Of a stretch of 45,889 nucleotides of DNA, positions 28,416-45,503 are shown in pieces; position 1 is the first letter of the stretch, and each line of letters begins with the position of its first letter. Origin of the DNA: Nitrospirota bacterium (GTDB taxonomy: Bacteria; Nitrospirota; JACRHL01); contig JAOUFN010000021.1 of the NCBI GenBank assembly GCA_029858285.1, forward strand, positions 1 to 45,889. The letters run 5' to 3'. The notes under the pieces were generated by a model, which worked only from the letters and a program-made list of their open reading frames with translations, made no database searches and was not told where the DNA came from. The position numbers were made by a program, and so were the translations under genes.

Positions 28416-28454
28416 GCGGGGCTGCCCCCGTCCCGGCTCCCGGCCCCCTGGTGA

Positions 28455-28829: not shown

Positions 28830-28874
28830 GGGGAAATTCCTTGTATGGCTCGGGCCGTGGCGGGGGGAGCGGAA

Positions 28875-29123: not shown

Positions 29124-29247
29124 GCCGCTGGTCCTGTGGCCGGGTAACTAAACGTACCCGCCCATTCTGGGGCCGAAACGGCCCGCCGGGCAAGGGTTGA
29201 GACACCATTTTTGCCCCCGTTTTCCCCCCTCCGCCGGAGAGGAACAG

Positions 29248-29253
29248 TAAAAT
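29248..29253 (+). promoter_or_regulatory. -10 element placing initiation at the mtaB start codon
   Basis: TAAAAT at 29248-29253 lies 6 bases before the GTG at 29260, so a transcript started from it would begin at or next to the start codon. No convincing -35 element lies 17 bp upstream and no usable ribosome-binding site precedes the GTG. Confidence 0.35.
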
Positions 29254-29259
29254 ACCCCT

Positions 29260-30675
29260 GTGCCCGACTCCCTGCGCATTTTTGCCCCCGTATCGCCGGA
29301 GACCGTTCCGCCCGATGCCGCTTCCGCCCCCGGTCACCCGCTGGCGGGGCGGCGGGTGGCGATTTACTCCATGGGCTGCCGGGTGAACCGCTTCGACGCC
29401 GCCCAACTGCGCGCCGAGTTCCTCGCCGAGGGGGCGCTGGTGGTGAACGGCGGGGAGCCGTTCGATCTGTTCGTGCTCAACACCTGCACCGTCACCCACG
29501 CCGCCGACAGCGAGGCCCGGCAGCGCATCCGCCGCGCCCGCCGCGCCAATCCCGAGGCCGTCATCGCCGTCACCGGCTGCTACGCCGAGGTCGCCCCGCA
29601 GGCGCTGGCCGCCCTGCCGCAGGTGGACCTGGTGGTCCCCAACAGCGCCAAACCGGAACTGGTGCGGCGGCTGGCCTACCTTCTGGCAGGCAGGCAGGAC
29701 GGGGGTGAGCGTGCCCCGGAGGCCTCGTCTTGCGCGGATTCCGCTCCGGCTTCCGGCCCGACCGGGCCGATGTTCGGCGCCGGTGCGACCGTCGCCCCCG
29801 ATAGCGGTGGCGACACCCGGCTGTTCCTCAAGGTGCAGGAGGGGTGCGACGTGGCCTGCGCGTTCTGCATCATCCCCGCCGCCCGGGGGCGCGCCCGCTC
29901 CATGCCGCCGGAGCGGGTCGTGGAGCAGGTCCGCGCCGCCCACGCCGCCGGGTACCGCGAGGTGATCCTGGCGGGCATCCATCTGGGGGGCTACGGCGAA
30001 GATTTTGACCCAAAACACGACTTCGCCGGGCTGCTGGAGAGGTTGCTGGCAGAGACGCCCATGCCGCGCATCCGCCTTGGTTCGCTGGAGCCGTGGGGGT
30101 TGTCCGATCACTTTGTGGACCTGTTCGGCAGCGCGCCGCGCCTGATGCCCAGCCTGCACCTGCCGTTGCAGTCGGGCTCTGCCTCGGTGCTGAAGCGCAT
30201 GCGCCGCCCGTGCACCCCGGAATTCTACCGCCGTCAGGTGGCGCGCATCCTCGCGGCCCGACCCGAGGTGGGGATTTCCACCGACGTGCTCACCGGCTTT
30301 CCCGGCGAGACCGACGCCGAGTTCGAAGCCGGGTTCGAATTTGTCGCGTCGTTGCCGTTCAGCGGGTTGCACGTGTTTCCGTATTCGGCGCGCTCGGGCA
30401 CCCCGGCGGCGGAGTTGCCCGGGGCGGTGCCGCCGCAGGTCAAGAAAACCCGCGTCGAACGGCTGCTGGCCTTGTCCGATTCCTTGCGGGCGGCGGCGCT
30501 GGCGCGGCAGGTGGGGATGGTCACCGCGGTGCTGGCGGAGCGCGGGGGGCGGGGCCACACCGGCAACCACTTTGTGGCGCGGCTGGGGCCGGAACTGGGC
30601 GCGGCCCCCGGCGAAGTCGTGACGGTGCGGGTGACCGGCCACGACGGCGAGGCGCTGACGGTGACGGCGCTGTAA
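29260..30675 (+). CDS. mtaB: tRNA t6A37 methylthiotransferase MtaB
   Basis: MtaB is a radical-SAM enzyme that adds a methylthio group to t6A37 of ANN-decoding tRNAs. The 471-aa protein has the three-domain layout: an N-terminal UPF0004 domain with cluster cysteines (YSMGCRVNRFDAAQLR, LNTCTVTHAAD, VTGCYAEV), the radical-SAM motif CDVACAFCIIPAARG (CxxxCxxC near residue 198), and a C-terminal TRAM-like part. The motif SMGCRVN separates MtaB from MiaB and RimO. A low-complexity insertion of about 40 residues lies between domains one and two. The GTG at 29260 is the only start before an in-frame stop; it lacks a ribosome-binding site. Confidence 0.93.
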   Translation: MPDSLRIFAPVSPETVPPDAASAPGHPLAGRRVAIYSMGCRVNRFDAAQLRAEFLAEGALVVNGGEPFDLFVLNTCTVTHAADSEARQRIRRARRANPEAVIAVTGCYAEVAPQALAALPQVDLVVPNSAKPELVRRLAYLLAGRQDGGERAPEASSCADSAPASGPTGPMFGAGATVAPDSGGDTRLFLKVQEGCDVACAFCIIPAARGRARSMPPERVVEQVRAAHAAGYREVILAGIHLGGYGEDFDPKHDFAGLLERLLAETPMPRIRLGSLEPWGLSDHFVDLFGSAPRLMPSLHLPLQSGSASVLKRMRRPCTPEFYRRQVARILAARPEVGISTDVLTGFPGETDAEFEAGFEFVASLPFSGLHVFPYSARSGTPAAELPGAVPPQVKKTRVERLLALSDSLRAAALARQVGMVTAVLAERGGRGHTGNHFVARLGPELGAAPGEVVTVRVTGHDGEALTVTAL

Positions 30676-30688
30676 CACCCTGCGGGCA

Positions 30689-30706
30689 CCACTCTCCGTG
30701 GAGTGG
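30689..30706. other. Hairpin after mtaB
   Basis: CCACTC-TCCGTG-GAGTGG forms a 6-bp stem 14 bp past the mtaB stop. No T-run follows. It may mark the end of the mtaB transcript ahead of the Sel1 promoter. Confidence 0.35.
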
Positions 30707-30726
30707 GCCGGGACAGCGGGAGGGGA

Positions 30727-30756
30727 TTGTCACATCCCCTGCCGGTCTGGTATAGA
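30727..30756 (+). promoter_or_regulatory. Sel1-set promoter 1
   Basis: TTGTCA (30727-30732) and TATAGA (30751-30756) are separated by 18 bp. The spacer CATCCCCTGCCGGTCTGG is nearly the same as at 31773-31802 and clearly related to that at 44885-44914. Conservation of the spacer, which the core promoter does not require, suggests a shared regulator. The Sel1 gene starts 95 bp further on. Confidence 0.65.
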
Positions 30757-30851
30757 TCGGACGCGCGGCGTGCCGTGGGAGCGCGGGGCGAGAATGCCCG
30801 GTTCACGGCACCGGGGAACAGGGCGGCAGAACAATTCTTTTTGGGAAATCC

Positions 30852-31715
30852 ATGAAAACAAACGTCAAGGTCGGGTTGGTGGCTGTTGGTTTGGCCGCAG
30901 TCCTGTCCGTGGTTCTGTTCGCCTTCCTGTCCGGAGGGCCGGAGGATGCCGCCGGGGATTTGCAAGCAGCCCAGGCAGCACTCAGGAATGGCGACTACCC
31001 CACCGCGATGAAGCTGCTGGGTCCGCTGGCGGAAAAGGGGGATGCCCACGCCCAGTTCACCCTGGGGGTCGTGTACCTGTCCGGCAAGGGGGTGCAGCAG
31101 AGCGGCGCCGAGGCGGCAAAGTGGTTCCTGAAATCCGCCGGGCAGGGCAACCAGGAAGCCCAGTTCAACCTTGCGGTCATGTATGCCTTTGGCCAGGGCG
31201 TGCCGCAGGACGGCAACCAGGCCGTGATGTGGTATCAGAAGGCCGCCGGGCAGGGCAGCGTCGAGGCCCGGTCCGCCCTTGCCACCCTGGGCTTCGCTGA
31301 CCAGGACGGACCGCAAACCTATGCCGAGGCGATGGAGCGGTTGCACAAGTCCGCCGCAGAAGGGGATGCGGGCGCCCAGTACAATCTGGGGGGCATGTAC
31401 ATGGGCGGCATGGGCGTGCCGCAGAATGCCGCCGAGGGGGTGAAGTGGCTTGGCCGGTCCGCCGGGCAGGGCAACCCCGATGCCCAGTTGCTGCTGGGGG
31501 GGGTGTACGGCGGCGGCCTGGGGGTGACGCAGGACCCGGTTCAGGGCTATTTGTGGTACAGCCTGGCCGCCACGAATTTCCCCGAGTTGGCGGCTGAGGC
31601 ACGCAAGGCGGCCACTGCGGGGCGTGACGCCCTGGCCGCCAAAATGACCCCGGCGCAGACCGCCGAGGCGCAGAAGCTTGTGCACGCGTGGAAGCCGAAA
31701 AAAGAAGGCCCGTAA
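30852..31715 (+). CDS. Sel1-repeat protein, exported (paralogue 1)
   Basis: This 287-aa protein has an N-terminal signal or anchor helix (LVAVGLAAVLSVVLFAFLSG), a helical pair NGDYPTAMKLLGPLAEKG, and five Sel1/TPR-like repeats with the pattern AQxxLGxxYxxGxGVxQD....A..W...AA.QG; the third is degenerate. The repeats form a solenoid for protein contacts. The C-terminus carries GRDALAAKMTPAQTAEAQKL and ends WKPKK, shared with the other three paralogues of this window. It is the first of three Sel1 genes in a row and has the shared promoter. The partner proteins are unknown; periplasmic location is inferred. Confidence 0.88.
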   Translation: MKTNVKVGLVAVGLAAVLSVVLFAFLSGGPEDAAGDLQAAQAALRNGDYPTAMKLLGPLAEKGDAHAQFTLGVVYLSGKGVQQSGAEAAKWFLKSAGQGNQEAQFNLAVMYAFGQGVPQDGNQAVMWYQKAAGQGSVEARSALATLGFADQDGPQTYAEAMERLHKSAAEGDAGAQYNLGGMYMGGMGVPQNAAEGVKWLGRSAGQGNPDAQLLLGGVYGGGLGVTQDPVQGYLWYSLAATNFPELAAEARKAATAGRDALAAKMTPAQTAEAQKLVHAWKPKKEGP

Positions 31716-31772
31716 CGCCTCCCCGTGTTGCCCGCCTGCGTTTCGCCCTCCCGCCGCAGGGTGACGGGGGCG

Positions 31773-31802
31773 TTGTGACATCCCCCGCCGGTGTGGCACA
31801 GT
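31773..31802 (+). promoter_or_regulatory. Sel1-set promoter 2
   Basis: TTGTGA (31773-31778), an 18-bp spacer CATCCCCCGCCGGTGTGG and CACAGT (31797-31802) align with the other two Sel1 promoters. The -10 element itself is poor, so the conserved spacer may be the functional part. The start codon is 34 bp downstream. Confidence 0.5.
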
Positions 31803-31835
31803 GAGCGGGGGAACCGGCCGCATGGGAAGGGAGTC

Positions 31836-32387
31836 ATGAAAACAATTGTCGGGATCGTGGGGGTGGCTGCGTTTCTGTCTGTGCTCCTGTCCGTGGGCGC
31901 ATCCCTGGAAGCGGTTACTCCGGCGTTTGCCGGGCCGCTGGAAGACAAGGCTCTGGCGGACGGGCAGGGGGCCTATCAAAACCACGATTACGCCACTGCA
32001 GAGCGGCTGCTGGGGCCGCTGGCCGAGGGGGGGAGCGCCGACGCCCAACTCACCATTGGGGCCATGTACCTCACCGGCAAGGGCGTGACGCAGGACCCCG
32101 CCGAGGCGCTGCGCTGGTTTCAGCGGGCCGCCGATCAGGGACTTGCCGACGCCCGCTCGCTGCTGGGCTTCATGTACGCCAGTGGCCGGGGCGCGCCGCA
32201 GGATTCCGTCCGCGCCTATGTGTGGTACAGCCTCGCCGCCGGGAGTTTTCCGGAATCGGCGGCGGAGTCGCGCAATGCGGCCATGGCGGGGCGGGACGCC
32301 ATCGCCACCAAAATGACCCCGGCACAGATCGCCCAGGCGCAAAAAATGGTCCGCGAGTGGCGGCCGAAAGGCAAAGACCAGCCGTGA
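31836..32387 (+). CDS. Sel1-repeat protein, secreted (paralogue 2)
   Basis: This 183-aa protein begins with a clear signal peptide ending near AFA-GPLED, then the helical pair NHDYATAERLLGPLAEGG and two Sel1 repeats (DAQLTIGAMYLTGKGVTQD and DARSLLGFMYASGRGAPQD). The C-terminus has GRDAIATKMTPAQIAQAQKM and ends in REWRPKGKDQP. I chose the ATG at 31836, which has AAGGGAG close upstream. It has its own copy of the shared promoter and is followed by paralogue 3 with a GTGA overlap, so the two are translationally coupled. Function unknown beyond protein-protein contact. Confidence 0.88.
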   Translation: MKTIVGIVGVAAFLSVLLSVGASLEAVTPAFAGPLEDKALADGQGAYQNHDYATAERLLGPLAEGGSADAQLTIGAMYLTGKGVTQDPAEALRWFQRAADQGLADARSLLGFMYASGRGAPQDSVRAYVWYSLAAGSFPESAAESRNAAMAGRDAIATKMTPAQIAQAQKMVREWRPKGKDQP

Positions 32388-33172
32388 ACCCCACGCATCG
32401 CCGCATCGGGTGGGGTGGGGTGGCCGTGGCGGCATGTGTCGCCCTGTCCGCACCGGCGTTGGCCGGAGCGCCGAAGGTGGCGCAGAATTTCCCCTTCCAC
32501 TCTGCCCCGGCGGCCCCGGCCAGCACCGATCCGCTGCGGGACGGGCAAAAGGCCTATCTGCGCGGTGATTTTTCCGCCGCCATGCAACTGCTGCGTCCGC
32601 TGGCCGAGCAGGGCAGCGCCGACGCCCAGGCCTATCTGGGACTCATGTACGACAACGGGCAGGGGGTGTCGCGGGATTATGCCGAGGCGGCGCGCTGGTA
32701 CCGGAAAGGCGCCGAAGGGGGGAATGTCACCGCCCAATCCCTGCTTGCGGGCATGTATACCGAGGGGCGGGGGGTGTCGAAGGACGACGCCGAGACGGTC
32801 AAATGGCTGCTGAAGGCCGCCGAACAGGGCAGCGCCACCGCCCAGCGGCTGATGGCCTTCCGTTATATGGAAGGCCGGGGGGTGCCGCGTGACGAGGAGC
32901 GGTCGGCGGAGTGGTTCTTCCGCGCCGCCGGACACGGCGACGCCGAGGCCCAGTTCAACCTGGGGCAGATCCATGCCGAGGGCCGGGGCGTCCCACGCGA
33001 CCCGGTGCAGGCGTACCTGTGGTTCAGTCTGGCCGCCGGGAACGGAGCGGATGCGCAGGCGGGGCGCCTGGCGGTCGAGGCCCGCAACAAACTGGCCCCC
33101 CGCATGACCCCGGCGCAGATCGCCCAGGCGAAACGGCTGGTTCGCGAGTGGAAGCCGGAAAAAGACCACTGA
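32384..33172 (+). CDS. Sel1-repeat protein, secreted (paralogue 3)
   Basis: The GTG at 32384 overlaps the stop codon of paralogue 2 (GTGA) and gives a 262-aa protein with a signal peptide (GGVAVAACVALSAPALA, cleavage near ALA-GA). After a Pro/Ala linker comes RGDFSAAMQLLRPLAEQG and four Sel1 repeats, for example AQAYLGLMYDNGQGVSRD and AQFNLGQIHAEGRGVPRD. The C-terminus KLAPRMTPAQIAQAKRLV and REWKPEKDH is the shared motif. The frame extends further upstream but that part has no coding character. It has no promoter of its own. It converges with the hydrolase gene. Confidence 0.87.
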   Translation: MNPTHRRIGWGGVAVAACVALSAPALAGAPKVAQNFPFHSAPAAPASTDPLRDGQKAYLRGDFSAAMQLLRPLAEQGSADAQAYLGLMYDNGQGVSRDYAEAARWYRKGAEGGNVTAQSLLAGMYTEGRGVSKDDAETVKWLLKAAEQGSATAQRLMAFRYMEGRGVPRDEERSAEWFFRAAGHGDAEAQFNLGQIHAEGRGVPRDPVQAYLWFSLAAGNGADAQAGRLAVEARNKLAPRMTPAQIAQAKRLVREWKPEKDH

Positions 33173-33178
33173 CAACCG

Positions 33179-33195
33179 GGCCCCGCCGGGGGGCC
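33179..33195. other. GC hairpin between convergent genes
   Basis: GGCCCC-GCCGG-GGGGCC lies in the 40-bp gap between the ends of Sel1 paralogue 3 and the hydrolase gene. It could act in both directions as a transcript end, but has no T-run on either side. Confidence 0.35.
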
Positions 33196-33212
33196 GGGGA
33201 GGGGCGGGAGCC

Positions 33213-34058
33213 CTACGCGGCGGGCACCAGCCGCGCCAGTTCGTCGAGGATCACCGGCATGTGCGCCCCCAGCCGGTGGTCGCCGCCGGGAATCTCTACC
33301 AGACGGCATTGGTCCGGCCCGATCTGCTGATGCAGGCTGCGGCCGGTGGCGATGGGCACCGATTCGTCCTCGCTGCCGTGCACGATGGTCACCGGGCAGG
33401 GGAGGATCAGCCGACCTTTGGGCGTCTCCATCATTATGGCGTCTAGCAGAAAGCCCTGGGTCAGGCGGTAGCGGGTACCGGGGCGGTAGCGGTCGTCCAT
33501 CTCCAAAAACCCCTCGGCCTTGAACTGCCGCGCCAGCTCCGGCGGCATGGTGGCCATGCGGCGCGAAAAAAAATCCGTGGGCGGCGCGATCAGCAGCAGG
33601 GCCACCGGGTCGATAAGGCCGGTGCGGGCGCTCTCCAGCGCCATCCAGCCGCCCATGCTGGAGCCCACTACCAGCAGCGGCTGGCCCGCGCCGCGCACCG
33701 CCTGAATGGCGGCGGCGTTGTCGGCCATGCCGCGGGAGACGCGGTAGTCCTCAAAATCGCCGTCGGAGTCGCCGTGGCCGATGTGGTCGTAACGCAGGCA
33801 GGCGTGGCCGTTTTCCGCCGCCCAGGCGGCAATCGCCCGTGCCTTGTCGCCGTAGTGCACCGAACGGAAACCGGACATGAAAACGATGAGCATGCCGCCG
33901 CCGGGCAGAAAGCGGCCGCGCAGGGTCAGTCCGTCGTCCCGCCGCAGGCTGAAATCCACCTCGCGGGGGGAGAGGGGGGCGCGCGGGTTGGTTGCGGGCG
34001 ATCCGGCGGGCGGCCCGGATGGTGTCGGACTGGATGGTGTCGGCCTAGATGGTGTCAT
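33213..34058 (-). CDS. Alpha/beta hydrolase, ABHD10-like
   Basis: This 281-aa protein has the alpha/beta hydrolase fold with a full catalytic triad: the nucleophile elbow VVGSSMGGWMALES (Ser near residue 130), Asp in HGSEDESVP, and His in IPGGDHRLG. The oxyanion region FMSGFRSVHYGDKA and LRYDHIGHGDSDG resembles ABHD10/YbbA-type esterases, which hydrolyse thioesters or glucuronide esters. The ATG at 34058 lies inside the last 14 bp of the glutamate dehydrogenase gene, with GGAG 10 bases upstream, so coupling is likely. A Pro/Thr/Ser-rich leader encoded by 15-bp tandem repeats precedes the domain. The substrate is unknown. Confidence 0.87.
   Translation of the reverse strand: MTPSRPTPSSPTPSGPPAGSPATNPRAPLSPREVDFSLRRDDGLTLRGRFLPGGGMLIVFMSGFRSVHYGDKARAIAAWAAENGHACLRYDHIGHGDSDGDFEDYRVSRGMADNAAAIQAVRGAGQPLLVVGSSMGGWMALESARTGLIDPVALLLIAPPTDFFSRRMATMPPELARQFKAEGFLEMDDRYRPGTRYRLTQGFLLDAIMMETPKGRLILPCPVTIVHGSEDESVPIATGRSLHQQIGPDQCRLVEIPGGDHRLGAHMPVILDELARLVPAA
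34017..34056. repeat. 15-bp tandem repeat across the gdhB-hydrolase overlap
   Basis: GGATGGTGTCGG plus three variable bases occurs at 34017-34031 and 34032-34046, with a partial third copy at 34047-34056. It encodes repeated Pro-Thr-Pro-Ser at the hydrolase N-terminus and includes the stop codon of the glutamate dehydrogenase gene. Confidence 0.8.
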
Positions 34059-37000
34059 CAATGAGCGACTCCAGATGGGTGAGCAGCAGCACCACGCGCA
34101 TCGGTTCGGCGTCCGGGGTTTCAGCCAGATGGGCGGCCAGTTCCGCCACCATGTTCCAGCGCGGGTGACGGTGCCAGATGTCCGCCCCCACTGCTGTAAG
34201 ATTACGCCCTTTTCCGGCTTTTCGCCGCAGCGCCGGAAGCCGGTTGCCCGAGGTCTGGTCGCCCAGCAGCCGGTCGATGGCGTGGCTGCGCATGCGCACC
34301 AGCCGCGCCAGCCACGCCCGCCGCAGCAGATAGGGCTCGCCCTCGCCCCAGGCCGGAGAGCGCAGGTGGTTTTCGCAGGTGAGGAGGGGGAGCAGGTCGA
34401 ACACCGCGCGCCCGGCGGCCAGCGCCCGCGACAGGGGGACCGCCCGGCTGGCGGTGGATTGCAGTGCGGCGCCGGAGCGCGCCAGCACCGGCATGGCGGC
34501 CATGCGGGTGCGCCATTCCGGGGGCAGTGCCAGGGTCTGGGGCAGCGGTTCGAAGTGGCCGCCGACGGGGGCTTTTTCCAGCAGGCGGGCGAAGCGCGTG
34601 AACTGACCGCGTTTGTGCGCCAGCCAGGCATGGTCGATCTCGTCCGCCTGATGCAGCCGCAGCAGCTCCTCGGCAAAGTGCTGCAAGTGGCCTTGCAGGG
34701 CCACCTCCAGGGTGAGGGAGGTCTCCAGATCGGCAACGCGGCGGATGGCCGCGCGCAGGGGGGCGGCGTCCAGCAGGTGGTCGGCGGCCAGCAGCGCCTG
34801 GGCGATGGCGGCCACCGCGGCCCCTTCCACCAGGTCTTCCAGATGGCTCACCGCAAGCATGCCGCAGCGGTCGGTGAGGGCGGTGGCGGCCATGGTGTGG
34901 ACGATGCCCGCACGCAACGGATGGGTGGCCACGGCCCGGGGGAAGCGGCGCAGGATGAGGGGTGGAAAATAGCCGTTGAGGAGCGCCTCGGCAAAGGGCG
35001 AACGATCGGCGAACCCGGCGTCCGCCAGACGCGCGGTGAGGCGGTTCTTCTCGTGCCCCAGCAGCACCGCCAGTTGCGGGCTTAAGGCAAGGGTGTCCTC
35101 GGCACCGGGTTCGGTGCCGGGGTTGGTGTCGGGGTCCAGTTCCCCCGCCAGCACCAGCCGGTTGCGCAGGCGCCGCAGGCGCGGCGGGAACGCACCGATC
35201 TCCTGGCGCGCCAGACTGATGGCGCGGGACTGGCTGCGGTTGTGGGTCAGGCACTGCGCGGCCACCTGATCCCCCACGCCGGCCAGCAGCCGGTCGCGGG
35301 CCTTGCCCCTGGGGGCGCCGGAGGCGTGGGTCAGCAGGATCTTCAGATTGACCTCGTGGTCCGACATGTCCACGCCGCCGGAGTTGTCGATGGCGTCGGT
35401 GTTGATGCGGCCGCCGCCGCGGGCGTATTCGATGCGCGCCCGCTGGGTGAAGCCCAGGTTGCCGCCCTCCCCCACCACCTTGCAGCGCAGGTCGGCGGCG
35501 TTCACCCGCACCGGGTTGTTGGCCGGGTCCCGCGCCTCTTCGTCGCGTTCGGTGGTGGCCTTGACGTAGGTGCCGATGCCGCCGTTGTAGAGCAGGTCCA
35601 CGGGGGCCTTGAGGATGGCGCGGATCAGTTCTTCGCCGCTCATCGGGCCGGGGTCCACGCCGAGGGCGGCGGCGGCTTGCGGGGAAACGGCAATACGCTT
35701 GGCGCTGCGGTCGAACACGCCGCCGCCGGGGCTGATGCGCTCCGGGTTGTACTGGTCCCAGCCGCCCGGATTGCGGAACAGGCGGCTGCGTTCGCGGAAG
35801 GCGGCCCTGGCGTCGGGGTCGGGGTCGAGGAAGACGTGGGCGTGGTTGAAGGCGGCGATCAGGCGCAGGGTGCGGCTTTGCAGCATGCCGTTGCCGAACA
35901 CGTCGCCGCCCATGTCGCCGATGCCGGCCACGGTCACCGGGTCTTTGTCCGGGTCCAGCCCCAGGTGGGCGAAGTGGTGGCGCACGCACACCCACGCGCC
36001 GCGCGCGGTGATGCCGTACACCTTGTGGTCGTAACCGTGGCTGCCGCCGCTGGCGAAGGCGTCGTCAAGCCAGAAACCGGCGGCGGCGGATTCGGCGTTG
36101 GCGAGGTCGGAAAAGCTTGCCGTGCCCTTGTCGGCGGCCACTACCAGATAGGGGTCGTGGGCGTCCTGTTCCGCCACGCGCACCCCGGCGGGGGGGACGA
36201 TCTCTGCCCCGACGCGGTTGTCGGTCACCGTCAGCAGGGCGTTCACGAAGGCGCTGTACTGGGCGCGGGTGAAGGCCGCGCCGCTGCCGTTTTTGAGGAC
36301 AAAGCCGCCCTTGGCCCCGGCGGGCACGATGATGCTGTTCTTCAACTGCTGGGTGGCCATCAGTTCCAGCACCTCGGTGCGGAAATCACCGGGGCGGTCG
36401 GACAGGCGCAGTCCGCCACGGGCCACGGGCCCCATGCGCAGATGCACCCCTTCCACATGGCGGCCGTGGACGAAAATCTCGCGCCACGGCAGGGGCCGGG
36501 GGGCAAAGGACAGCAGGGAGGGGTCGATCTTGACGGCCAGGGGGGCGCCCGACGGGCGGGTGAAGGCGTTGGTGCGCAGGGACGCCGTCACCAGTTCCGC
36601 CAGATGGCGGAACCAGCGGTCGTCGGTAAGGTTGCGCACTTCCGCCAGGGCGGCGTCGAAGTCCTTTCTGGCCCTGGCCGACGGGTCGATGCGGGCGGCG
36701 GCGGAGGGGGACAGCGGGGTTTCCGGAAGCGTCAGGGGCGGGGGCGCGTGGCGCGCGGCGAACATGGCATAGAGGGCCGCCGTCACCCGTGGCCAGGCGT
36801 TCAGGGTGCGGGTGAGGGCGCCGGGTCCGGCGTCCGCCACCAGTTGCACCAGATGGTTGCGCAGGGCGGTGATCACCGCCACGGCGGCGGAGTCCAGCCC
36901 GGCTGCCAGCACCAGGGCATTGGCCGGGTCGTTGTCGGCCAGGTCGGAGAGCACCGCCTCCAGGGCCAGGCGCAGGCGCGGCAGGGCCTCGGTGTGCAGG

Positions 37001-38751
37001 GGGCGGGCGTAGCCGCAGGTCAGGGTGGTCAGGTGTGCCGGCGGGGTGGAGGGGAACTCCACCACCACTTCCTTGAGGGCGGTCAGGCCAAAATTCTGCA
37101 CCACCGCCACCAACTCTCCCAGGGGCACGGGCAGGGCGGTGAAGATGTGCATCTCCACACCGTCCCCGGTGGTCTCCAGACGCACCTGCGGCCGCCCGCT
37201 GGCGCCCACCCGTCGGGCCAGCGCCAGGTTGGGCACGAAGGTCTGGGCGGGGAACAGATCGGTATACAGGTGCGGCAGCGCCGCCAGGGTTTCCATGGCT
37301 TGCCGCAGTTCCGCGCCGCTGAGCATGGCCTTGACCGAGGAGCGTGCGCGGTCGCGCCAGGTGATGGTGCATTCCTGAATCTGGTGGTGCAGGTTCTCCA
37401 GCCGCTCGGCGGAGATCGCCCCCCCTTCCGGCGGCAGGGCGCTGACGAACAACAGCATGTGGGGGCCCACCGCCGCCGTGTAGTGGTGCAGCGGAGTCAT
37501 GCCGGAGGCCGCCACCGCCCCCAGCACCCCCTGTTCCACGCGCCGTCCATAGCGGGAGGCTTCCACCACGGTGAGGATCAGGCGTACCGTGCCGGGGTGG
37601 GGCGCCCATTCGAACACCAGGGCGCGTTCCGGGTTGCCGGCCTCGCAGATGGTGACCATGGTCGCCAGCAACCGGGCTTCCGGCACCGACAGCAGCACCG
37701 GCTTGGGGAGGCGGTCGAACAGGGTGCGCACCTCCCGCGACAGATAGGCCGAGCGCGCCAGCGCGGGGGCGCGGCGCATGCGCTCCCACAGCCGCCCCAG
37801 CAGGGGCGCCTGACTGGCGTTGGTGTGGCGTGCCGAGCGCGAAAAATGGCCAAGAAATACGGCGCTTTCCAGATTGCCGTCGTGGCCCTGCCAGGTGGCC
37901 CGCACCACCTCCAGATGGGCGGCACCATAAAGCAGGCGCTGGCCGTGGGGCAGGTAGAGCCACTCCAGGCCGGGGGCGGCGGGGGGGGAGGCCTCTGCCA
38001 GCGCGGCCAGGTCGTCGGTCAGGCCGGGGGCCACCCGGCGCATGGTGGCGCGGTTGCCGAGGATGCCCAGCCGTCGGCCGTCGGCCTGGGCTCCAAACAG
38101 GATGTAACGCGCGTCACGCATCCACCCCAGCAGGGCGGCGGCGTCCGGGTGGGACAGGCGCAGCCCCTGGGCGGCTTCGGCCAGGGTGTGCGACATGGCC
38201 GCGAAATCGCGTACCGACAGGTGTACCGCGTGGGTGATCGCCACCAGGTCGCGGTGCAGTGCGGCGCCGTCCGGCACCAGGGTGGCGGATATCTGAAGCG
38301 CCACCAGCATCTCGCTGGCGTGGCTGCCCGCCTGCGGGGAACAGACGGTGGCGGGCTGGCCGCTGTCGCCGCGTGTGCAGCACAGCACCACGGTGTGACG
38401 CCCCAGCAGGGAGATACCGTTCTCGGCCAGATAGACCTTGATGCCGTCGAGGAAAAACGCCTGATCGGGGCAGCGCACCACCAGCAGGTGACGGTGCAGG
38501 TCGCCGTGGGTGATGGTGCGGAAGGAGACGCTGACGGCCTCGCTGGCGCCCCGTTCCAGCAGGTCGATGGCGTCCTCCAGCAGGGGCTGGCGGACCGCCG
38601 CCGGAATCGGTCCGGACGGCCCGCGCTCGGCCTCCGCCAGCAAAGCGCCAAGGGGCTGGGTGAGGGTTTGCCGGGGGGCGGTGGCTGCGGCCTTGCCGGA
38701 GGTGCGGGGCTGGCGGCCCTTGCGGGGCGGCTTTTTTGTGGAATCTTTCAT
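34045..38751 (-). CDS. gdhB: Giant NAD-specific glutamate dehydrogenase
   Basis: This 1568-aa enzyme is of the large (GDH-180 / L-GDH) class, which deaminates glutamate to 2-oxoglutarate with NAD and is mainly catabolic. The long N-terminal part holds ACT-like regulatory segments. The catalytic domain starts near residue 740 and shows GPVARGGLRLSDRPGDFRTEV, QQLKNSIIVPAGAKGGFVLKN (substrate lysine) and DPVTVAGIGDMGGDVFGNGM, each typical. A C-terminal helical region follows. The ATG at 38751 is preceded by GGAGG very closely; a basic, Lys/Arg-rich 25-residue leader follows. The stop lies inside the downstream hydrolase gene. An extended -10 promoter lies about 90 bp upstream. Confidence 0.94.
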   Translation of the reverse strand: MKDSTKKPPRKGRQPRTSGKAAATAPRQTLTQPLGALLAEAERGPSGPIPAAVRQPLLEDAIDLLERGASEAVSVSFRTITHGDLHRHLLVVRCPDQAFFLDGIKVYLAENGISLLGRHTVVLCCTRGDSGQPATVCSPQAGSHASEMLVALQISATLVPDGAALHRDLVAITHAVHLSVRDFAAMSHTLAEAAQGLRLSHPDAAALLGWMRDARYILFGAQADGRRLGILGNRATMRRVAPGLTDDLAALAEASPPAAPGLEWLYLPHGQRLLYGAAHLEVVRATWQGHDGNLESAVFLGHFSRSARHTNASQAPLLGRLWERMRRAPALARSAYLSREVRTLFDRLPKPVLLSVPEARLLATMVTICEAGNPERALVFEWAPHPGTVRLILTVVEASRYGRRVEQGVLGAVAASGMTPLHHYTAAVGPHMLLFVSALPPEGGAISAERLENLHHQIQECTITWRDRARSSVKAMLSGAELRQAMETLAALPHLYTDLFPAQTFVPNLALARRVGASGRPQVRLETTGDGVEMHIFTALPVPLGELVAVVQNFGLTALKEVVVEFPSTPPAHLTTLTCGYARPLHTEALPRLRLALEAVLSDLADNDPANALVLAAGLDSAAVAVITALRNHLVQLVADAGPGALTRTLNAWPRVTAALYAMFAARHAPPPLTLPETPLSPSAAARIDPSARARKDFDAALAEVRNLTDDRWFRHLAELVTASLRTNAFTRPSGAPLAVKIDPSLLSFAPRPLPWREIFVHGRHVEGVHLRMGPVARGGLRLSDRPGDFRTEVLELMATQQLKNSIIVPAGAKGGFVLKNGSGAAFTRAQYSAFVNALLTVTDNRVGAEIVPPAGVRVAEQDAHDPYLVVAADKGTASFSDLANAESAAAGFWLDDAFASGGSHGYDHKVYGITARGAWVCVRHHFAHLGLDPDKDPVTVAGIGDMGGDVFGNGMLQSRTLRLIAAFNHAHVFLDPDPDARAAFRERSRLFRNPGGWDQYNPERISPGGGVFDRSAKRIAVSPQAAAALGVDPGPMSGEELIRAILKAPVDLLYNGGIGTYVKATTERDEEARDPANNPVRVNAADLRCKVVGEGGNLGFTQRARIEYARGGGRINTDAIDNSGGVDMSDHEVNLKILLTHASGAPRGKARDRLLAGVGDQVAAQCLTHNRSQSRAISLARQEIGAFPPRLRRLRNRLVLAGELDPDTNPGTEPGAEDTLALSPQLAVLLGHEKNRLTARLADAGFADRSPFAEALLNGYFPPLILRRFPRAVATHPLRAGIVHTMAATALTDRCGMLAVSHLEDLVEGAAVAAIAQALLAADHLLDAAPLRAAIRRVADLETSLTLEVALQGHLQHFAEELLRLHQADEIDHAWLAHKRGQFTRFARLLEKAPVGGHFEPLPQTLALPPEWRTRMAAMPVLARSGAALQSTASRAVPLSRALAAGRAVFDLLPLLTCENHLRSPAWGEGEPYLLRRAWLARLVRMRSHAIDRLLGDQTSGNRLPALRRKAGKGRNLTAVGADIWHRHPRWNMVAELAAHLAETPDAEPMRVVLLLTHLESLIDDTI

Positions 38752-38838
38752 ACCCTCCGTCCGTGGAACGGGTCGCGTTGCGTGCGGCTCTATGGCCCGG
38801 CTTCCGGCCTTCCCCCCTTTTCGGGCGCGGATGCCCTG

Positions 38839-38847
38839 ATCATAACA
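38839..38847 (-). promoter_or_regulatory. Extended -10 promoter of gdhB
   Basis: The minus strand reads TGTTATGAT, a TGn-extended -10 element, with no clear -35. The expected leader is about 80 bases. The divergent gap 38752-38996 otherwise shows only GC-rich sequence. Confidence 0.45.
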
Positions 38848-38996
38848 GCAAGGGGGCGCGGGCGGCGGGGTGAGGGCGATCCGGCGCGTACCCTGCCTGC
38901 GCCGCATCGTCGGCCAGGAGCAGGCCGACCCTTTATCCGTCGAGGGGCGGCGCGGCGGGCGGACTGTGTTAACCTGACAGCCTCAGCATCGCCTGT

Positions 38997-41048
38997 GTGT
39001 GGGGCCCATTGGACGTAGCGCGCCTGACATCGTTGGCCTCCCGCCTGCATCAGGGTGGAGGGCGATTGTTCCTGGCCACGGGGGTGGCGGCGGCGTGGTT
39101 CGCCTGCCTGCACGCCTGGCTCAGGATGGTCCCGATCGCGGCCCAGAACAGCGACGTGACCGGCAGCTACCTGCCCGCGGCCCGCGCTTTCCGGGAGGCG
39201 GGCTTTGCCATGATGGCCCACTGGAAATCCCTGGAGATTTCCCCCTTTTCCTACGTGTACCTGTCGCTGTTCCTGGACCACCCGGAATTTGCCCAGTACC
39301 TGCATTGCGCGTTTTTCGGGCTGTGTGTCTGGCTTTTTTACCGCATCGGAGAACGCATCCACTCCCCCGCCGCCGGGGCGGTGGCAGCGTGGCTGCTGGC
39401 CAGCCAGCCATCCCTTGGCAGCCTGTTTTCCACCCTGCTGTCGGAGCCGCTGTTCTTTACCCTGCTCAGCGTGTCGCTGTGGGCGACGGTGGAGGTTGTG
39501 GCGGGAGGGCGGCGGCGTTTGATTGCCGTGGCCGGGGTGGCCTTCGGTCTGGGGCTGATTACCCGCGGGGTGTTCATTTACGGCTTTTACGCCGCGTTGT
39601 TGCTGCTGCCGCTGCTGGCCCGGGGGGCGCGGGGCATGTCGCGCAGACTCCCGGAAAAATTCCCGGTCGAACGGACGCTGGGGTGTTCCCGCAACTTGCT
39701 GGAACTATGGCGCATCTGCCTGTTCGCCCTGCCGTTTCCCCTGGTGGTGCTGGTCAAAAACCTGATTCTGTTCGGTTTTTTCGGCCTGTATTCGGGGGCC
39801 GGCGCCCAGCTCTACTACGGCAGCCACCCGCTGACCGGCGGCATCGATCCCAACTGGATTCTGGGGCTGTGGATGGATGTGCCGCTGACCTCTTCCCCGT
39901 CCTACATTCCGCCCCTGAGCCCACTGGGTGATCTGGTGTACGGCGAAATCGGCCGGGAGATGATCCGCGACCTGGGCCTGCTGCCGTGGCTGGGGATGCT
40001 GCTGCACAAGGCACTGGCCTTCGTATTTGCGGTGAACGGGAATATGGGGAGCAACCCGTCAAACCCGCTGCCGTGGGTCGATGTGCGGACCCTGCGCGTG
40101 GTGGAGGCGGGGCTGGCGGTGGCCGGGCTGTGGGCGGTCCGCAGCCGCCGCGCCGTGGCGCTGTTCGCGCTGGGCGCGGTGTATGTGGTGGCGGTTCACG
40201 CCCCGGCGCTGCTGGTGTACCGCTACTCCGTGCTGCTGGTGTTTTTTCTGATCCCCCTGAGCGCTGCGGGCGCGGTGTGGACGGCCACCCGGCTGGCGGC
40301 ATCCAGCACGCGCCAACGGACCGTCGCGTGGGGGGTGTGCCTGACCGTGGCCCTTGGCGTTGCGGCCGGAAAATGGCATTACGCCCACGCCCTGAATACC
40401 CCCATCCACGTCTCCCGCGGACACCTCCGGGAGGCGGCGGTGGTCCCCCCCGAGACGCTGCGCGCCCTGTCCGGCGAGCGCTGGAGGGCTGTCTCCACGG
40501 TCCCCGGCGCTGCCGCGGTGTCGGCCACCTATTTCGCGGCCGATGCCCGGCCGGTGCTGCTGGTGCCCATCACCGGCGCCGAACTGTCCGGCCTCCTGCT
40601 GCAGGGGCGGGTGCTGGCCGTCACCTCCATCCGCATGGCGATTGCCGCTCCGCATGGCGCGGACTGCCGCAGCGCGACCCTGTCCTTCCGGCCTGCGGGC
40701 AGTGACACCGGGTGGTCCCCCGGACAACGCTTCCGCATTCGCGCCGACGGCAGGGAGCGCTGGTATCACGTGGGCAGTTATCCGTTAAAGCTGGCGCGCG
40801 CCGGGCTGTTTCGGTTGACCTTCGATTGTCCGGCTGGTACCCGGGTGACGCCGGGCGATTTCCGCGTGCTGGAGGATTTTACCGCCGCGACGTACGGTCG
40901 CCGCGTGCTCCAGCGGCTGGAGGCGGAGGGGAAACTGCAGGCGATGATGGTGACCGGTGAGCCTCTGTTGCGCGTTCCGCCGCCGCTCTTCCGGTCGGCC
41001 CCGTTCCCCCCGGCCCGGACGGAGAACCGGCCCGCCGCCCGTCAGTGA
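38997..41048 (+). CDS. GT-C-type multi-span membrane protein (putative glycosyltransferase)
   Basis: This 683-aa protein has about ten hydrophobic spans in its first 470 residues and a soluble, probably periplasmic C-terminal region of about 200 residues. After the first span comes IAAQNSDVTGSYLPAARAF, an acidic residue in the first periplasmic loop followed by an arginine, the pattern of PMT/ArnT-like GT-C glycosyltransferases that use polyprenyl-linked sugars. RYSVLLVFFLIPLSAAG near residue 410 is another feature of the group. The start is uncertain: the GTG at 38997 has no good ribosome-binding site, and a TTG at 39009 is possible. No sugar or O-antigen genes are near. The stop overlaps the convergent lon stop by 7 bp. 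Confidence 0.7.
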   Translation: MWGPLDVARLTSLASRLHQGGGRLFLATGVAAAWFACLHAWLRMVPIAAQNSDVTGSYLPAARAFREAGFAMMAHWKSLEISPFSYVYLSLFLDHPEFAQYLHCAFFGLCVWLFYRIGERIHSPAAGAVAAWLLASQPSLGSLFSTLLSEPLFFTLLSVSLWATVEVVAGGRRRLIAVAGVAFGLGLITRGVFIYGFYAALLLLPLLARGARGMSRRLPEKFPVERTLGCSRNLLELWRICLFALPFPLVVLVKNLILFGFFGLYSGAGAQLYYGSHPLTGGIDPNWILGLWMDVPLTSSPSYIPPLSPLGDLVYGEIGREMIRDLGLLPWLGMLLHKALAFVFAVNGNMGSNPSNPLPWVDVRTLRVVEAGLAVAGLWAVRSRRAVALFALGAVYVVAVHAPALLVYRYSVLLVFFLIPLSAAGAVWTATRLAASSTRQRTVAWGVCLTVALGVAAGKWHYAHALNTPIHVSRGHLREAAVVPPETLRALSGERWRAVSTVPGAAAVSATYFAADARPVLLVPITGAELSGLLLQGRVLAVTSIRMAIAAPHGADCRSATLSFRPAGSDTGWSPGQRFRIRADGRERWYHVGSYPLKLARAGLFRLTFDCPAGTRVTPGDFRVLEDFTAATYGRRVLQRLEAEGKLQAMMVTGEPLLRVPPPLFRSAPFPPARTENRPAARQ

Positions 41049-43576
41049 GGGGCGCGGCGCGGGCGGATGTGAAAGGCCAGCCGCGCCACCTCGGGAAACT
41101 GCTTCACATAGTGCAGGTGCATGCCCTCGGTCACCGACTTGGGCAGTTCTTCCACGTCGTTGCGGTTGGCGGCGGGCAGGATCACCTCGGTGATGCCCAC
41201 GCGCTTGGCCGCCAGCAGCTTTTCGCGCACTCCGCCGATGGCCAGCACCTCGCCGGTGAGGGTCATCTCGCCGGTCATGGCCAGGGGCAGGGGCGGGCGG
41301 TTCAGGGCCAGGGACAGCAGGGCCGTGCCCATGGCGATGCCGGCGCTGGGGCCGTCCTTGGGCACCGCCCCCTCCGGCACATGCAGGTGGATGAAGCGCG
41401 AGTTGAACCAGTCGGGGTTGGCACCGAAGGTCGCCAGATGCGCCGACAGGTACGACAGGGCCAGTTCCGCCGACTCCTGCATCACCTTGCCCAGTTGCCC
41501 GGTGAGTTTTAAACCGCGTTCGCCGCCGTGCACCACCGCCGCCTCCAGGGTGAGGGTGGTGCCGCCCAGGGCGGTCCAGGCCAGCCCCGTGGACACCCCC
41601 ACCATCTCGCGGATGGCGGTTTCGCGGAAACGCGGCTTGCCCACCCACTGCTCCAGGTCGCGGGCACCGATGGTGAGCGGGGCCGAGCGGGGGCTTTCCA
41701 CCAGGTGGCGGGCGGTTTTGCGCAGGATTTTTTTCAGGTACTGCTCCAGTTGCCGAACCCCCGGCTCGCGGGCATAGTCCTCGATCAGGTGCTGGATGGC
41801 GGCGTCGGTCAGGCGCACGTCGTCGCGGCCCAGATGGTGGGCCTGAAGCTGGCGGGGCCACAGGTGGCGGCGGGCGATGTCGAACTTTTCCGAGGCCATG
41901 TAGCCGGGCAGGTGGATGATCTCGGCGCGGTCCAGCAGGGGCGGCGGCACCGTGTCCGGCACGTTGGCGGTAAGCAGGAACAGCACCCGCGACAGGTCGA
42001 AGCGCACGTCCAGGTAGTGGTCCAGAAAATCCACGTTCTGCTCCGGGTCGAGCACCTCCAGCAGGGCGCTGGCGGGGTCGCCACGGAAATCGGCGCCGAT
42101 CTTGTCCACCTCGTCGATCATGATGACCGGGTTGGCGAACTTCACCAGCTTGAGGGCCTGGATGATCTTGCCGGGCATGGCGCCGATATAGGTGCGGCGG
42201 TGGCCCTTGATCTCGGCCTCGTCGCGCATGCCGCCCACCGAAAAGCGGTAGAACGGCCGCCCCACGGCACTGGCGATGGCCTTGCCGACGCTGGTCTTGC
42301 CGACGCCGGGCGGCCCCAGAAACAGGATGATGGAGCCCCCCACCTCCTTCTTGCGGGAACCCACGGCGATGAACTCGAGGATGCGGTCCTTGACGTCCTC
42401 CAGACCGGCGTGGTCGCGGTCCAGCTCGCGCCGGGCGCGCTTCAGGTTGTAGCGGTCGCGGTGAAACTTGCCCCACGGCAGGGCGGTGAGCCAGTCCAGA
42501 TAGCCGCGCACCACGCCGAATTCGGGGGAACTGGTCTCCAGCATCGAAAGTTTTTCCAGCTCTTCCTCAAAGCGTTCCCTGGCCTCGCGGCTGAAGCGCA
42601 ATTTTTTGGCCCGTTCGGCGAAATGCTTCAACTGCTGGGTGCGGTCGTCGTCCTCCATGCCCAGCTCGCGCTGGATTTCGGTCAACTGCTGGTGCAGGAA
42701 GAACCTTCTCTCCTGATCGCTGACCTTTTCCTCGATGTTCTTGCGGATGCGGGTCTGGAGTTTCGACACGTCCACCTCGCGGCGGATCAGGGTCAGCACC
42801 AGCTTGAGGCGGTCGAAAATCGGGAAGGCCTCCAGCACCGCCTGCAACTCATCGCGGTCGGCGCTGGTGAGGCTGGCGGCAAAGTCGGCCAGGCGCGACG
42901 GCTCGCTGGGGCCAAAGCGCGACAGGAACAGTTTCAACTCTTCCTCGTGCAGCGGATTGTGCTTGAGCAGTTCCTTGATGGTGTTGAGAATGGCCACCGT
43001 ATAGGCGCGCAGTTCCAGGTTGTCGCGGTATTCGGTTTCGTGGTGGTAGCGCACGCGGGCGCGCAGGGGCAAATCCTCGGTCAGGAAATGCTCCACATGG
43101 AAGCGCTCCAGACATTCCACCACCAGATGCAGGCCGTGGCCGGGGACTTCGGCCATTTTGTGGACCCTGGCCACCACTCCCACGGCGTGCAGGTTGGAAG
43201 GCACAAAATCGCCCTCCTCGTCCCGCGCCAGCACCAGCCCCACGTAATTCAGGGTGTTTTCCCCCATGTCGCGCAGCACGGATTTGATCCTGGGGTGTTC
43301 GTAGACCAGTGGCACCACCAGTCCGGGGAACATGGGGCGGCTGGTGAGGGGCAGGATGAGCAGGGTGTCGGGCAGTGTGTAGCGGGCCAGCACCATGGCC
43401 TTGCCGGAACCGGCCCCGGACCCGTTGTCGTCGTTGTCGTCGTTGTCGCCGGAATCCGCCTCTCCGCGCCCGAGCAGTTCCGGGCGGTGGAGGGTGTTGT
43501 CGTTGCCGGAGTCGCCGTCGACGGGGTGGCCAAGGCGGCGAAGGGCGTCATGAAGGGCGTCGTCGATGTGGCTCAT
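41042..43576 (-). CDS. lon: ATP-dependent protease Lon
   Basis: Lon is the hexameric AAA+ serine protease for damaged and regulatory proteins. The 844-aa chain has the N-terminal LON substrate domain (LILPLTSRPMFPGLVVPLVYE), the ATPase domain with Walker A LGPPGVGKTSVGKAIA (about residue 420), Walker B VIMIDEVDKIG and the sensor region, and a C-terminal protease domain with catalytic Ser in KDGPSAGIAMGTA (about 745) and Lys in LLAAKRVGITEV. The first 60 residues are unusual: an Asp/Asn/Gly-rich segment (GDNDDNDDNGSG) encoded by a 9-bp repeat. I chose the ATG at 43576 with GGAGGAG upstream. Confidence 0.96.
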   Translation of the reverse strand: MSHIDDALHDALRRLGHPVDGDSGNDNTLHRPELLGRGEADSGDNDDNDDNGSGAGSGKAMVLARYTLPDTLLILPLTSRPMFPGLVVPLVYEHPRIKSVLRDMGENTLNYVGLVLARDEEGDFVPSNLHAVGVVARVHKMAEVPGHGLHLVVECLERFHVEHFLTEDLPLRARVRYHHETEYRDNLELRAYTVAILNTIKELLKHNPLHEEELKLFLSRFGPSEPSRLADFAASLTSADRDELQAVLEAFPIFDRLKLVLTLIRREVDVSKLQTRIRKNIEEKVSDQERRFFLHQQLTEIQRELGMEDDDRTQQLKHFAERAKKLRFSREARERFEEELEKLSMLETSSPEFGVVRGYLDWLTALPWGKFHRDRYNLKRARRELDRDHAGLEDVKDRILEFIAVGSRKKEVGGSIILFLGPPGVGKTSVGKAIASAVGRPFYRFSVGGMRDEAEIKGHRRTYIGAMPGKIIQALKLVKFANPVIMIDEVDKIGADFRGDPASALLEVLDPEQNVDFLDHYLDVRFDLSRVLFLLTANVPDTVPPPLLDRAEIIHLPGYMASEKFDIARRHLWPRQLQAHHLGRDDVRLTDAAIQHLIEDYAREPGVRQLEQYLKKILRKTARHLVESPRSAPLTIGARDLEQWVGKPRFRETAIREMVGVSTGLAWTALGGTTLTLEAAVVHGGERGLKLTGQLGKVMQESAELALSYLSAHLATFGANPDWFNSRFIHLHVPEGAVPKDGPSAGIAMGTALLSLALNRPPLPLAMTGEMTLTGEVLAIGGVREKLLAAKRVGITEVILPAANRNDVEELPKSVTEGMHLHYVKQFPEVARLAFHIRPRRAPH
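43424..43450. repeat. 9-bp tandem repeat in lon
   Basis: Two copies of GTTGTCGTC and a third with one change (GTTGTCGCC) lie in frame and encode the repeated Asp-Asp-Asn stretch near the Lon N-terminus. A length change here would not alter the frame. Confidence 0.85.
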
Positions 43577-43723
43577 GCTGGATGACTCCTCCGGGCGACA
43601 GGGGGAGTCTCCACTTCCCCCGCCCCCTGTGTCCCCCCCCGCGCCGAAAAGGCATTGTCCGTGCGGACCACACCTCCATTGTGCCAGATATCCGACCGCT
43701 GCGGGAGTTCGGGTAGAAGTGGT

Positions 43724-43753
43724 TTGCCGACGGCCGCCGATCCGGGCTATGGT
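43724..43753 (+). promoter_or_regulatory. Candidate pldA promoter
   Basis: TTGCCG (43724-43729), 18 bp, and TATGGT (43748-43753) lie 55 bp upstream of pldA. The -35 element and spacing equal those proposed for map. The rest of the 43577-43808 gap between lon and pldA shows no other feature. Confidence 0.4.
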
Positions 43754-43808
43754 GGGCCGCCGGAACGGGGCCGTGAGATGGGCAGGAGCCGAGGGAAAGG
43801 AGTCCGGG

Positions 43809-44849
43809 GTGAAGCTGCGGAGACGATGCCACTGGTGGCTGGCGGCCTTGCTGCTGTGGGGGGGGACCCCTGTTTGGGCGCAGGAGGCGGGCACGGCCCC
43901 TTCGGCCACCGATGCCACCCCGGCGGAGACGGCCGCCCCGGCATCCGCCACCCTGGCCCATCTGCTCGCCCTGCCGGAGGAGGTGCCGGAAATCGCCCCC
44001 ATGGAGCGACCGTTCTCCCCGCATCTGCTGAATTACCTTCAGTATTCCTCGGGGGACGTGCAGTTTCAGTTTTCGGTGAAATACAAGATGTGGTCGTGGT
44101 CCGAAAGCGCCCCCGCCTCCGGGGCGTTTTTCACCTACACGCAGCGCTCGTACTGGGGGTTTTCCCTGCCGTCGCGACCGTTTCTGGAAAGTGACTACAA
44201 TCCGGGGTTTCTCTTCTGCAACAACCGGGGGCGCGACACCGGGGGCATCAGCGGCATCTGGCGCAGGCCGTTGTTTTTGGGGGGGTGGGAGCATGAGTCC
44301 AACGGCATGTCCGGCCCCACCTCCCGCAGTTGGCACCGCTGGTTCGGGCAGGCGCGGCTGCTGGCGTGGCACGGAGAGGACGAATCGGGCGGCGGTTTTG
44401 AACGCTCGTGCAGCCCCACGGAACGTTCCCACAAGGGGCAGGAAGTCTCCCTGTGGCTGAAGGGGTGGCACGCCTACAGCGACGCCCAGAACCCGGACAT
44501 TCAGGATTTTTACGGCAACGGCGAGGTGCTTTTGCACGTCTCGGGCCGCCATGAGTTCATCAACGCGGCCTGGCGGCATGGCGAGAGCGGCGGGCGCCAG
44601 TCGCTGCGGGTGGATGCCTCGTGGCACCTGGTCAGAACCCTGGAGCGGCTGCGGCTGGACCGTGTGCTGAAGACCTTCAGCCCGCTGGTCGGCGTGTCCC
44701 GCCGGGAGTTTGACCCCGCGTGGGAGGTGCGGAGGAACCGCAACAACGTGTACCTGAACGTGCAGTACTGGATCGGCTACGGCGAATGGCTGGGGACGTA
44801 CAACCAGAAGTCCCAGGGGGTGAGCGTGGGGCTGGTGTTTCCGAATTGA
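43809..44849 (+). CDS. pldA: Outer-membrane phospholipase A
   Basis: OMPLA is a calcium-dependent outer-membrane beta-barrel enzyme that hydrolyses phospholipids misplaced in the outer leaflet. The 346-aa precursor starts at a GTG with AAAGGAG 6 bases upstream and has a signal peptide (WWLAALLLWGGTPVWA). The active site is clear: catalytic His in GGWEHESNGMSG (near residue 161) and Ser in PTSRSWHRWF. The strands before it (FFTYTQRSYWGFS, FLESDYNPGFLF) and the C-terminal aromatic phenylalanine pattern (LVFPN) fit the barrel. A Pro/Ala/Thr-rich linker of about 40 residues follows the signal. It diverges from lon. Confidence 0.93.
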   Translation: MKLRRRCHWWLAALLLWGGTPVWAQEAGTAPSATDATPAETAAPASATLAHLLALPEEVPEIAPMERPFSPHLLNYLQYSSGDVQFQFSVKYKMWSWSESAPASGAFFTYTQRSYWGFSLPSRPFLESDYNPGFLFCNNRGRDTGGISGIWRRPLFLGGWEHESNGMSGPTSRSWHRWFGQARLLAWHGEDESGGGFERSCSPTERSHKGQEVSLWLKGWHAYSDAQNPDIQDFYGNGEVLLHVSGRHEFINAAWRHGESGGRQSLRVDASWHLVRTLERLRLDRVLKTFSPLVGVSRREFDPAWEVRRNRNNVYLNVQYWIGYGEWLGTYNQKSQGVSVGLVFPN

Positions 44850-44884
44850 ATTTGCCGCATGGGGGGCTGTACAAAGGCAGGGCA

Positions 44885-44914
44885 TTGTGACGCCCCGCGC
44901 CGACGTGGTACAAA
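44885..44914 (+). promoter_or_regulatory. Sel1-set promoter 3
   Basis: TTGTGA (44885-44890), an 18-bp spacer CGCCCCGCGCCGACGTGG and TACAAA (44909-44914) align with the promoters at 30727 and 31773. It lies 41 bp upstream of Sel1 paralogue 4, 13 kb from the others. Confidence 0.55.
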
Positions 44915-44954
44915 ATGGTCACGGGGTAGGGGACACACGGATGGGGAGAACATC

Positions 44955-45344
44955 ATGAAAAAACTTGTCAGGGCGGGGCTGATGGCGGTGCTTCTGTGCG
45001 TGGCTCCGACCACCCCGGCGCTGGCCGGGCCGCTGGAGGACGATGCAAGCGGCGACTACGCCACCGCCCTGCGGCTGCTCAAGCCCTTGGCTGAACAGGG
45101 CCTTGCCGACGCCCAGTTCAACCTCGGGGTCATGTACGCCACCGGTCGGGGCGTGCCGCAGGATGACGTGCGGGCGCACATGTGGTACAACCTCGCCGCT
45201 GCTGGCTTTCCGGCGGCGGAGGCGGAACCGCGCAATGTGGTTGTCGCAGTTCGCGATGCCGTGGCCGCCAAAATGACCCCGGCGCAGATTGCCGAGGCGC
45301 AAAGGCTGGCACGGGAGTGGAAGCCGAAAAAAGACGGTCAATAA
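44955..45344 (+). CDS. Short Sel1-repeat protein, secreted (paralogue 4)
   Basis: This 129-aa protein has a signal peptide (LMAVLLCVAPTTPALA, cleavage before GPLED as in paralogue 2), SGDYATALRLLKPLAEQG and a single Sel1 repeat (DAQFNLGVMYATGRGVPQD). The C-terminus VAAKMTPAQIAEAQRL and REWKPKKDGQ is the shared motif. The ATG at 44955 has GGGGAG upstream. It is in effect the two ends of a longer paralogue with the middle repeats missing, so it may be a minimal form. It lies after pldA, has its own copy of the shared promoter and is followed by a weak terminator. Confidence 0.87.
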   Translation: MKKLVRAGLMAVLLCVAPTTPALAGPLEDDASGDYATALRLLKPLAEQGLADAQFNLGVMYATGRGVPQDDVRAHMWYNLAAAGFPAAEAEPRNVVVAVRDAVAAKMTPAQIAEAQRLAREWKPKKDGQ

Positions 45345-45386
45345 TCGCCCCGCGCCGCCCGCTTTTGTCCGATCCCTCCCCCCCAT

Positions 45387-45404
45387 CACCCCCCGGTGTT
45401 TTTT
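45387..45404 (+). terminator. Weak intrinsic terminator after Sel1 paralogue 4
   Basis: CACC-CCCC-GGTG forms a short stem followed directly by six T residues (45399-45404), 43 bp past the stop of the Sel1 gene. A longer alternative pairs CACCCCC with GGGGGTG downstream. Confidence 0.4.
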
Positions 45405-45503
45405 GCGGGGGTGGGTTGCGCTATGCTTGCCCCCGGTTTTGGGGCGGGGAATCGGGAAGTTTGAAACCGGAACGGGCGCGTGTGCGCCGGATTGGGGAGA
45501 TGT

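Follow-up and report, generated by a model that had tools for sequence, protein, structure and literature searches.

Families of proteins with Sel1-like repeats (PF08238) that lineage-specific duplication has expanded show a variable number of repeats, N termini resembling signal peptides and several paralogues per genome, and these three traits recur in the genome described here. The promoter types that come closest to the sequences upstream of its genes are sigma-70 promoters with an extended -10 element (TGn) and promoters read by ECF sigma factors, which are often tightly conserved. For the ECF41 group, a promoter of the form TGTCACA-n16-CGTC has been described (PMC3426412).

The window (the whole stretch of 45,889 nucleotides that was analysed) contains four Sel1 genes, all on the forward strand and all exceeding the PF08238 gathering cut-off of 30.7 bits. 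They encode (i) a protein of 287 aa (gene 1; 30852..31715) with a hydrophobic N terminus, Sel1 repeats and the C-terminal tail ...KMTPAQTAEAQKLVHAWKPKK (113.5 bits, E 3e-33), (ii) a protein of 183 aa (gene 2; 31836..32387) with a predicted signal peptide, Sel1 repeats and, as seen in the alignment with gene 1, the same tail (58.8 bits, E 5.5e-16), (iii) a protein of 262 aa (gene 3; 32384..33172; 133 bits, E 2.1e-39) and (iv) a protein of 129 aa (gene 4; 44955..45344) with a predicted signal peptide, one Sel1 repeat and the tail of gene 1 (45.6 bits, E 8.2e-12). Membership of the MerG, AlgK and MotX families was rejected, as all scores were far under the cut-off. Gene 1 is preceded in this genome by a methylthiotransferase gene, and a phospholipase A1-family gene (PF02253) lies upstream of gene 4.

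Three of these genes are preceded by a promoter-like box of 30 bp on the forward strand. Box 1 (30727..30756; TTGTCACATCCCCTGCCGGTCTGGTATAGA) consists of TTGTCA, an 18-nt spacer and TATAGA, with TGG ahead of the second hexamer, and is located 95 nt from the ATG of gene 1. Box 2 (31773..31802; TTGTGACATCCCCCGCCGGTGTGGCACAGT; TTGTGA, 18-nt spacer, CACAGT) and box 3 (44885..44914; TTGTGACGCCCCGCGCCGACGTGGTACAAA; TTGTGA, 18-nt spacer, TACAAA) are found 33 nt and 40 nt from the start codons of genes 2 and 4, respectively. The pattern common to all three is TTGT-S-AC..CCC..GCCG...TGG-Y-A-Y-A. Gene 3 has no box of its own, because its GTG start codon overlaps the TGA stop codon of gene 2 (GTGA); it is probably co-transcribed with gene 2 from box 2, as predicted from this arrangement. 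An earlier sequence-only reading of this DNA had placed the three boxes at exactly these positions, with the sequences given above and each upstream of a Sel1 gene, and this was borne out, with the amendment that the three Sel1 genes of which it spoke are those carrying a box, out of four in the window.

The boxes share 24/30 (boxes 1-2), 22/30 (2-3) and 20/30 (1-3) identical positions over their full length, and 16/18, 13/18 and 11/18, respectively, within the spacer. At the base composition of the window, the chance identity of spacers is approximately 0.285 per position, and the probability of even 15/18 identities is about 2e-6 per comparison; boxes 1 and 2 have 16. The "related form" that it saw in box 3 is a fair description, but a weak one when the spacer is taken alone: in a leave-one-out scan of the window (91,718 positions), the box 3 spacer ranked 68th, and its assignment to the group is therefore based on spacer and hexamers jointly. 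Each full box, in contrast, ranked first in the same scan.

The check proposed in that reading was a search of the genome for the 30-bp pattern. In pattern searches of the 2.56-Mb genome and of sampled stretches, on which our genome-wide statements are based, a degenerate consensus allowing up to three mismatches matched these three boxes only, all of them upstream of Sel1 paralogues, and the reversed control pattern had no match in the genome. The genome contains at least seven Sel1 genes; those outside the window (contigs C20, C30 and C54), as well as those of the relative G003, have no strong match to the box nearby. The consensus likewise had no match in the remaining three genomes of the family, and among 395 further genomes of the phylum it matched five times at three mismatches, compared with two matches of the reversed control, which is the chance level. 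In the literature, nothing was found on this element. The data support a promoter-like element that is common to three Sel1 genes and confined to them.

An identical 30-mer, TAGTGACACTTCAGGCCGATCTGGCATAGA, with three mismatches to the consensus, occurs in L093 and L094, which belong to genomes of two different families of the phylum. This match is at chance level and could perhaps reflect a conserved gene or a mobile element. Contig C20 carries a fifth close Sel1 paralogue (L062:2308-3030), with a related C-terminal tail and no box, located directly downstream of a gene resembling those for YifB/magnesium-chelatase-type ATPases.

These searches also bear on the view that the likeness of the boxes is due to chance or to a general promoter feature of a G+C-rich genome. 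The hexamers alone are sometimes indistinct (those of box 2 ranked fourth in the window), and TGG followed by YAYA is somewhat frequent in front of genes (8 occurrences on the forward and 0 on the reverse strand; shuffle mean 3.8). However, the top ranks of the full boxes, the absence of a further match in 2.56 Mb, the outcome of the 395-genome search and the spacer identity of boxes 1 and 2 all contradict this view, which we consider extremely improbable and have rejected.

Judged against the sigma-70 consensus, the hexamers score poorly. No site in the region 28001-45889 reaches 9/12 consensus positions, and this includes the three boxes, in which TTGTSA and YAYARW are 18 bp apart, with TGG before the second hexamer. 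Owing to these poor matches, the promoter activity of the boxes is putative; their organization fits a weak sigma-70-like promoter with an extended -10 element. A crude promoter background compiled from approximately 190 kb plus the window revealed no strong general consensus, a result of little weight, since the gene caller had missed genes 2 and 4.

The genome encodes five sigma-70-type factors: (i) a 603-aa open frame, which we take from its size to be RpoD, (ii) an RpoS-like, (iii) an RpoH-like and (iv) a FliA-like factor, and (v) a single ECF-type protein of 207 aa among the PF04542 matches, whose best matches are the PRK12513, SigY, SigM and RpoE models. The box might be read by a dedicated sigma factor, either an alternative one or one of the ECF type. 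Tight conservation is a frequent property of ECF promoters, and box 1 does contain TGTCACA, the sequence that defines the -35 element of ECF41 promoters (PMC3426412). The corresponding sequences are TGTGACA in box 2 and TGTGACG in box 3, however, and CGTC is found 16 nt further on in none of the three. The 207-aa ECF protein does not have the C-terminal extension that an ECF41 factor should carry, and no ECF41-type factor was found in the genome; assignment to ECF41 was rejected on these grounds. Moreover, the genome holds no larger set of sites, and a regulon of just three paralogues would be unusual. A dedicated sigma factor with these three genes as its sole targets is improbable, and we give very little credence to any special sigma factor as the reader of the box. 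Of the two causes proposed in the sequence-only reading, a common regulator or a special sigma factor, the latter is thus unlikely, given five sigma-70-type factors and three sites, and the former is possible.

That reading had set duplication aside on the grounds that the coding parts had diverged much more than the promoters. This proved to be wrong. The codon-aligned DNA identity of the coding regions is 70% (genes 1-2), 68% (1-4) and 73% (2-4), and that of the corresponding boxes, with 30 positions each, is 80%, 67% and 73%. In sliding 30-nt coding windows, the identity of the boxes is reached at 19% (1-2), 56% (1-4) and 57% (2-4) of positions, and the first 60 nt of the coding regions (42/60, 35/60 and 37/60 identical positions in the three gene pairs) are nearly as alike as the boxes. 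Four-fold degenerate sites are 56-63% identical, with 37-39% expected at saturation. The Sel1 genes do differ in their number of repeats, which may be why the coding parts looked more divergent. The boxes have diverged in step with the coding sequences, so duplication of gene and promoter together is sufficient to explain their likeness, and it is the simplest reading.

The relationships of the proteins point in the same direction. A comparison across 31 genomes placed other Sel1 genes of this genome closest to gene 2 (53-60% identical); the best matches in the 30 related genomes share 44-47% identity along a part of the protein. The Sel1 paralogues are closer to one another than to anything in these 30 genomes, and in the relative G003 no Sel1 genes follow the methylthiotransferase gene. 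The simplest reading of these comparisons is that a single transcription unit has multiplied within this lineage, giving rise to the Sel1 genes and their boxes.

The end of contig C41 (L065:3005-3229) contains copies of the 3' ends of gene 4 and of the phospholipase A1-family gene, corresponding to window positions 45281-45381 and 44772-44867, respectively. The gene 4 copy covers 101 bp at 100% identity and adjoins the phospholipase copy, which is 93% identical. This structure may have arisen by a duplication around gene 4, or it may reflect a mixture of strains or, as the exact 101 bp would allow, an assembly overlap.

Some observations speak against co-duplication as the whole explanation. 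The leaders, the 60 bp preceding each box and the 3' flanks could not be aligned above shuffled sequences; only the coding starts and box pairs 1-2 and 2-3 could, box pair 1-3 being non-significant in local alignment. Continuous homology through leader and flanks, by which a duplication of gene plus promoter would be recognized, was thus not found, and if the boxes had simply been inherited, some likeness would be expected in these regions, barring its loss through indels. The identity of the boxes is also somewhat above that of four-fold sites. The missing flank homology is nevertheless compatible with an old duplication followed by indels, as continuity is to be expected of a recent duplication only. 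The box appears as an island of similarity, but its conservation exceeds that of silent sites by only a small margin in a comparison of three sequences, which is suggestive at most. Because two box pairs align while the flanks do not, and in view of the identity at four-fold sites, there is some room for selection on the box, possibly through a common regulator.

A detailed inspection of the boxes revealed an inverted repeat whose centre lies at the -35 hexamer. In box 1 (30717..30744) it has the structure CGGGAGGGGAT-6 nt-ATCCCCTGCCG, with 10/11 pairs. Shorter repeats occupy the same place in box 2 (31765-31787; 6/6 pairs, 11-nt spacing) and box 3 (44877-44898; 6/7 pairs, 8-nt spacing), and the centres agree within one base across the three boxes. 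When random stretches of the window took the place of the upstream DNA, a fraction of 0.0001 of trials attained the joint score, and when the upstream bases were shuffled the fraction was 0.0027; neither probability is corrected for the choice of the test, which was made with the sequences already in view. Among the remaining hints of a shared operator the repeat is the strongest, albeit weak and post hoc.

The inverted repeat may indicate that a common transcription factor binds an operator overlapping the -35 element (G-run, TTGTSAC, C-run) and controls all three copies, the spacer being conserved as part of this operator. Its presence in all three boxes with nearly coincident centres would be explained in this way, as would the confinement of similarity to the box between non-alignable flanks, and such an operator can coexist with co-duplication. 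On the other hand, arm length and spacing (6, 11 and 8 nt) vary, G-runs and C-runs are frequent in DNA with a G+C content of 69%, the comparison is limited to three sequences, the genome searches yielded no additional site, and the scanned neighbours included no gene recognized as a regulator. On balance, we regard the operator as rather unlikely. A more specific version, in which a local regulator would read an inverted repeat straddling the -35 element into the spacer and jointly control an expanding family of exported Sel1 proteins while the other upstream DNA diverged, is in our judgement unlikely. At L065:3010-3027, the sequence TTGTCACCCGCGCGACAA, an inverted repeat with the TTGTCAC word of box 1, is located upstream of what appears, judged by eye, to be an alcohol dehydrogenase gene.

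We consider it probable that one ancestral transcription unit gave rise to three copies, each with one of the boxes as its promoter, i.e. that the boxes result from the ordinary expansion of a small gene family. The ancestral unit would have comprised a promoter, a short leader, a signal peptide, Sel1 repeats and the conserved C-terminal tail, and would have been duplicated within the lineage, giving genes 1 to 3 by local copying and gene 4 by copying to a site 13 kb distant. Each box would most likely act as an ordinary housekeeping or RpoS-like sigma-70 promoter, with TTGTSA as the -35 element, an 18-bp spacer and an extended -10 element (TGG plus YAYARW), driving the synthesis of a small, predicted exported Sel1-repeat protein; box 2 would also serve gene 3 by way of the overlapping start and stop codons. 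The likeness of the spacers would have been inherited with the genes, with some help from modest purifying selection acting on the promoter.

The locus illustrates how members of a small gene family that are copied along with their promoter can remain co-expressed. Promoter conservation between paralogues says little unless it is set against the divergence of the coding sequences. If the operator were proven, it would provide an entry point to the signals to which the exported Sel1 proteins of this little-studied Nitrospirota lineage respond.

Compared with the described systems, the three boxes resemble extended -10 sigma-70 promoters in the TTG at -35, the 18-bp spacer and the TGG directly before a TATA-like hexamer, but differ from them in their weak hexamers (e.g. 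CACAGT and TACAAA) and in a spacer that is alike among paralogues along its whole length. With ECF41 promoters the likeness is limited to the TGTCACA of box 1, boxes 2 and 3 being different and a CGTC -10 element being absent. The difference from Sel1-like families is that three members here keep the same upstream box, whereas the other Sel1 genes that were checked do not.
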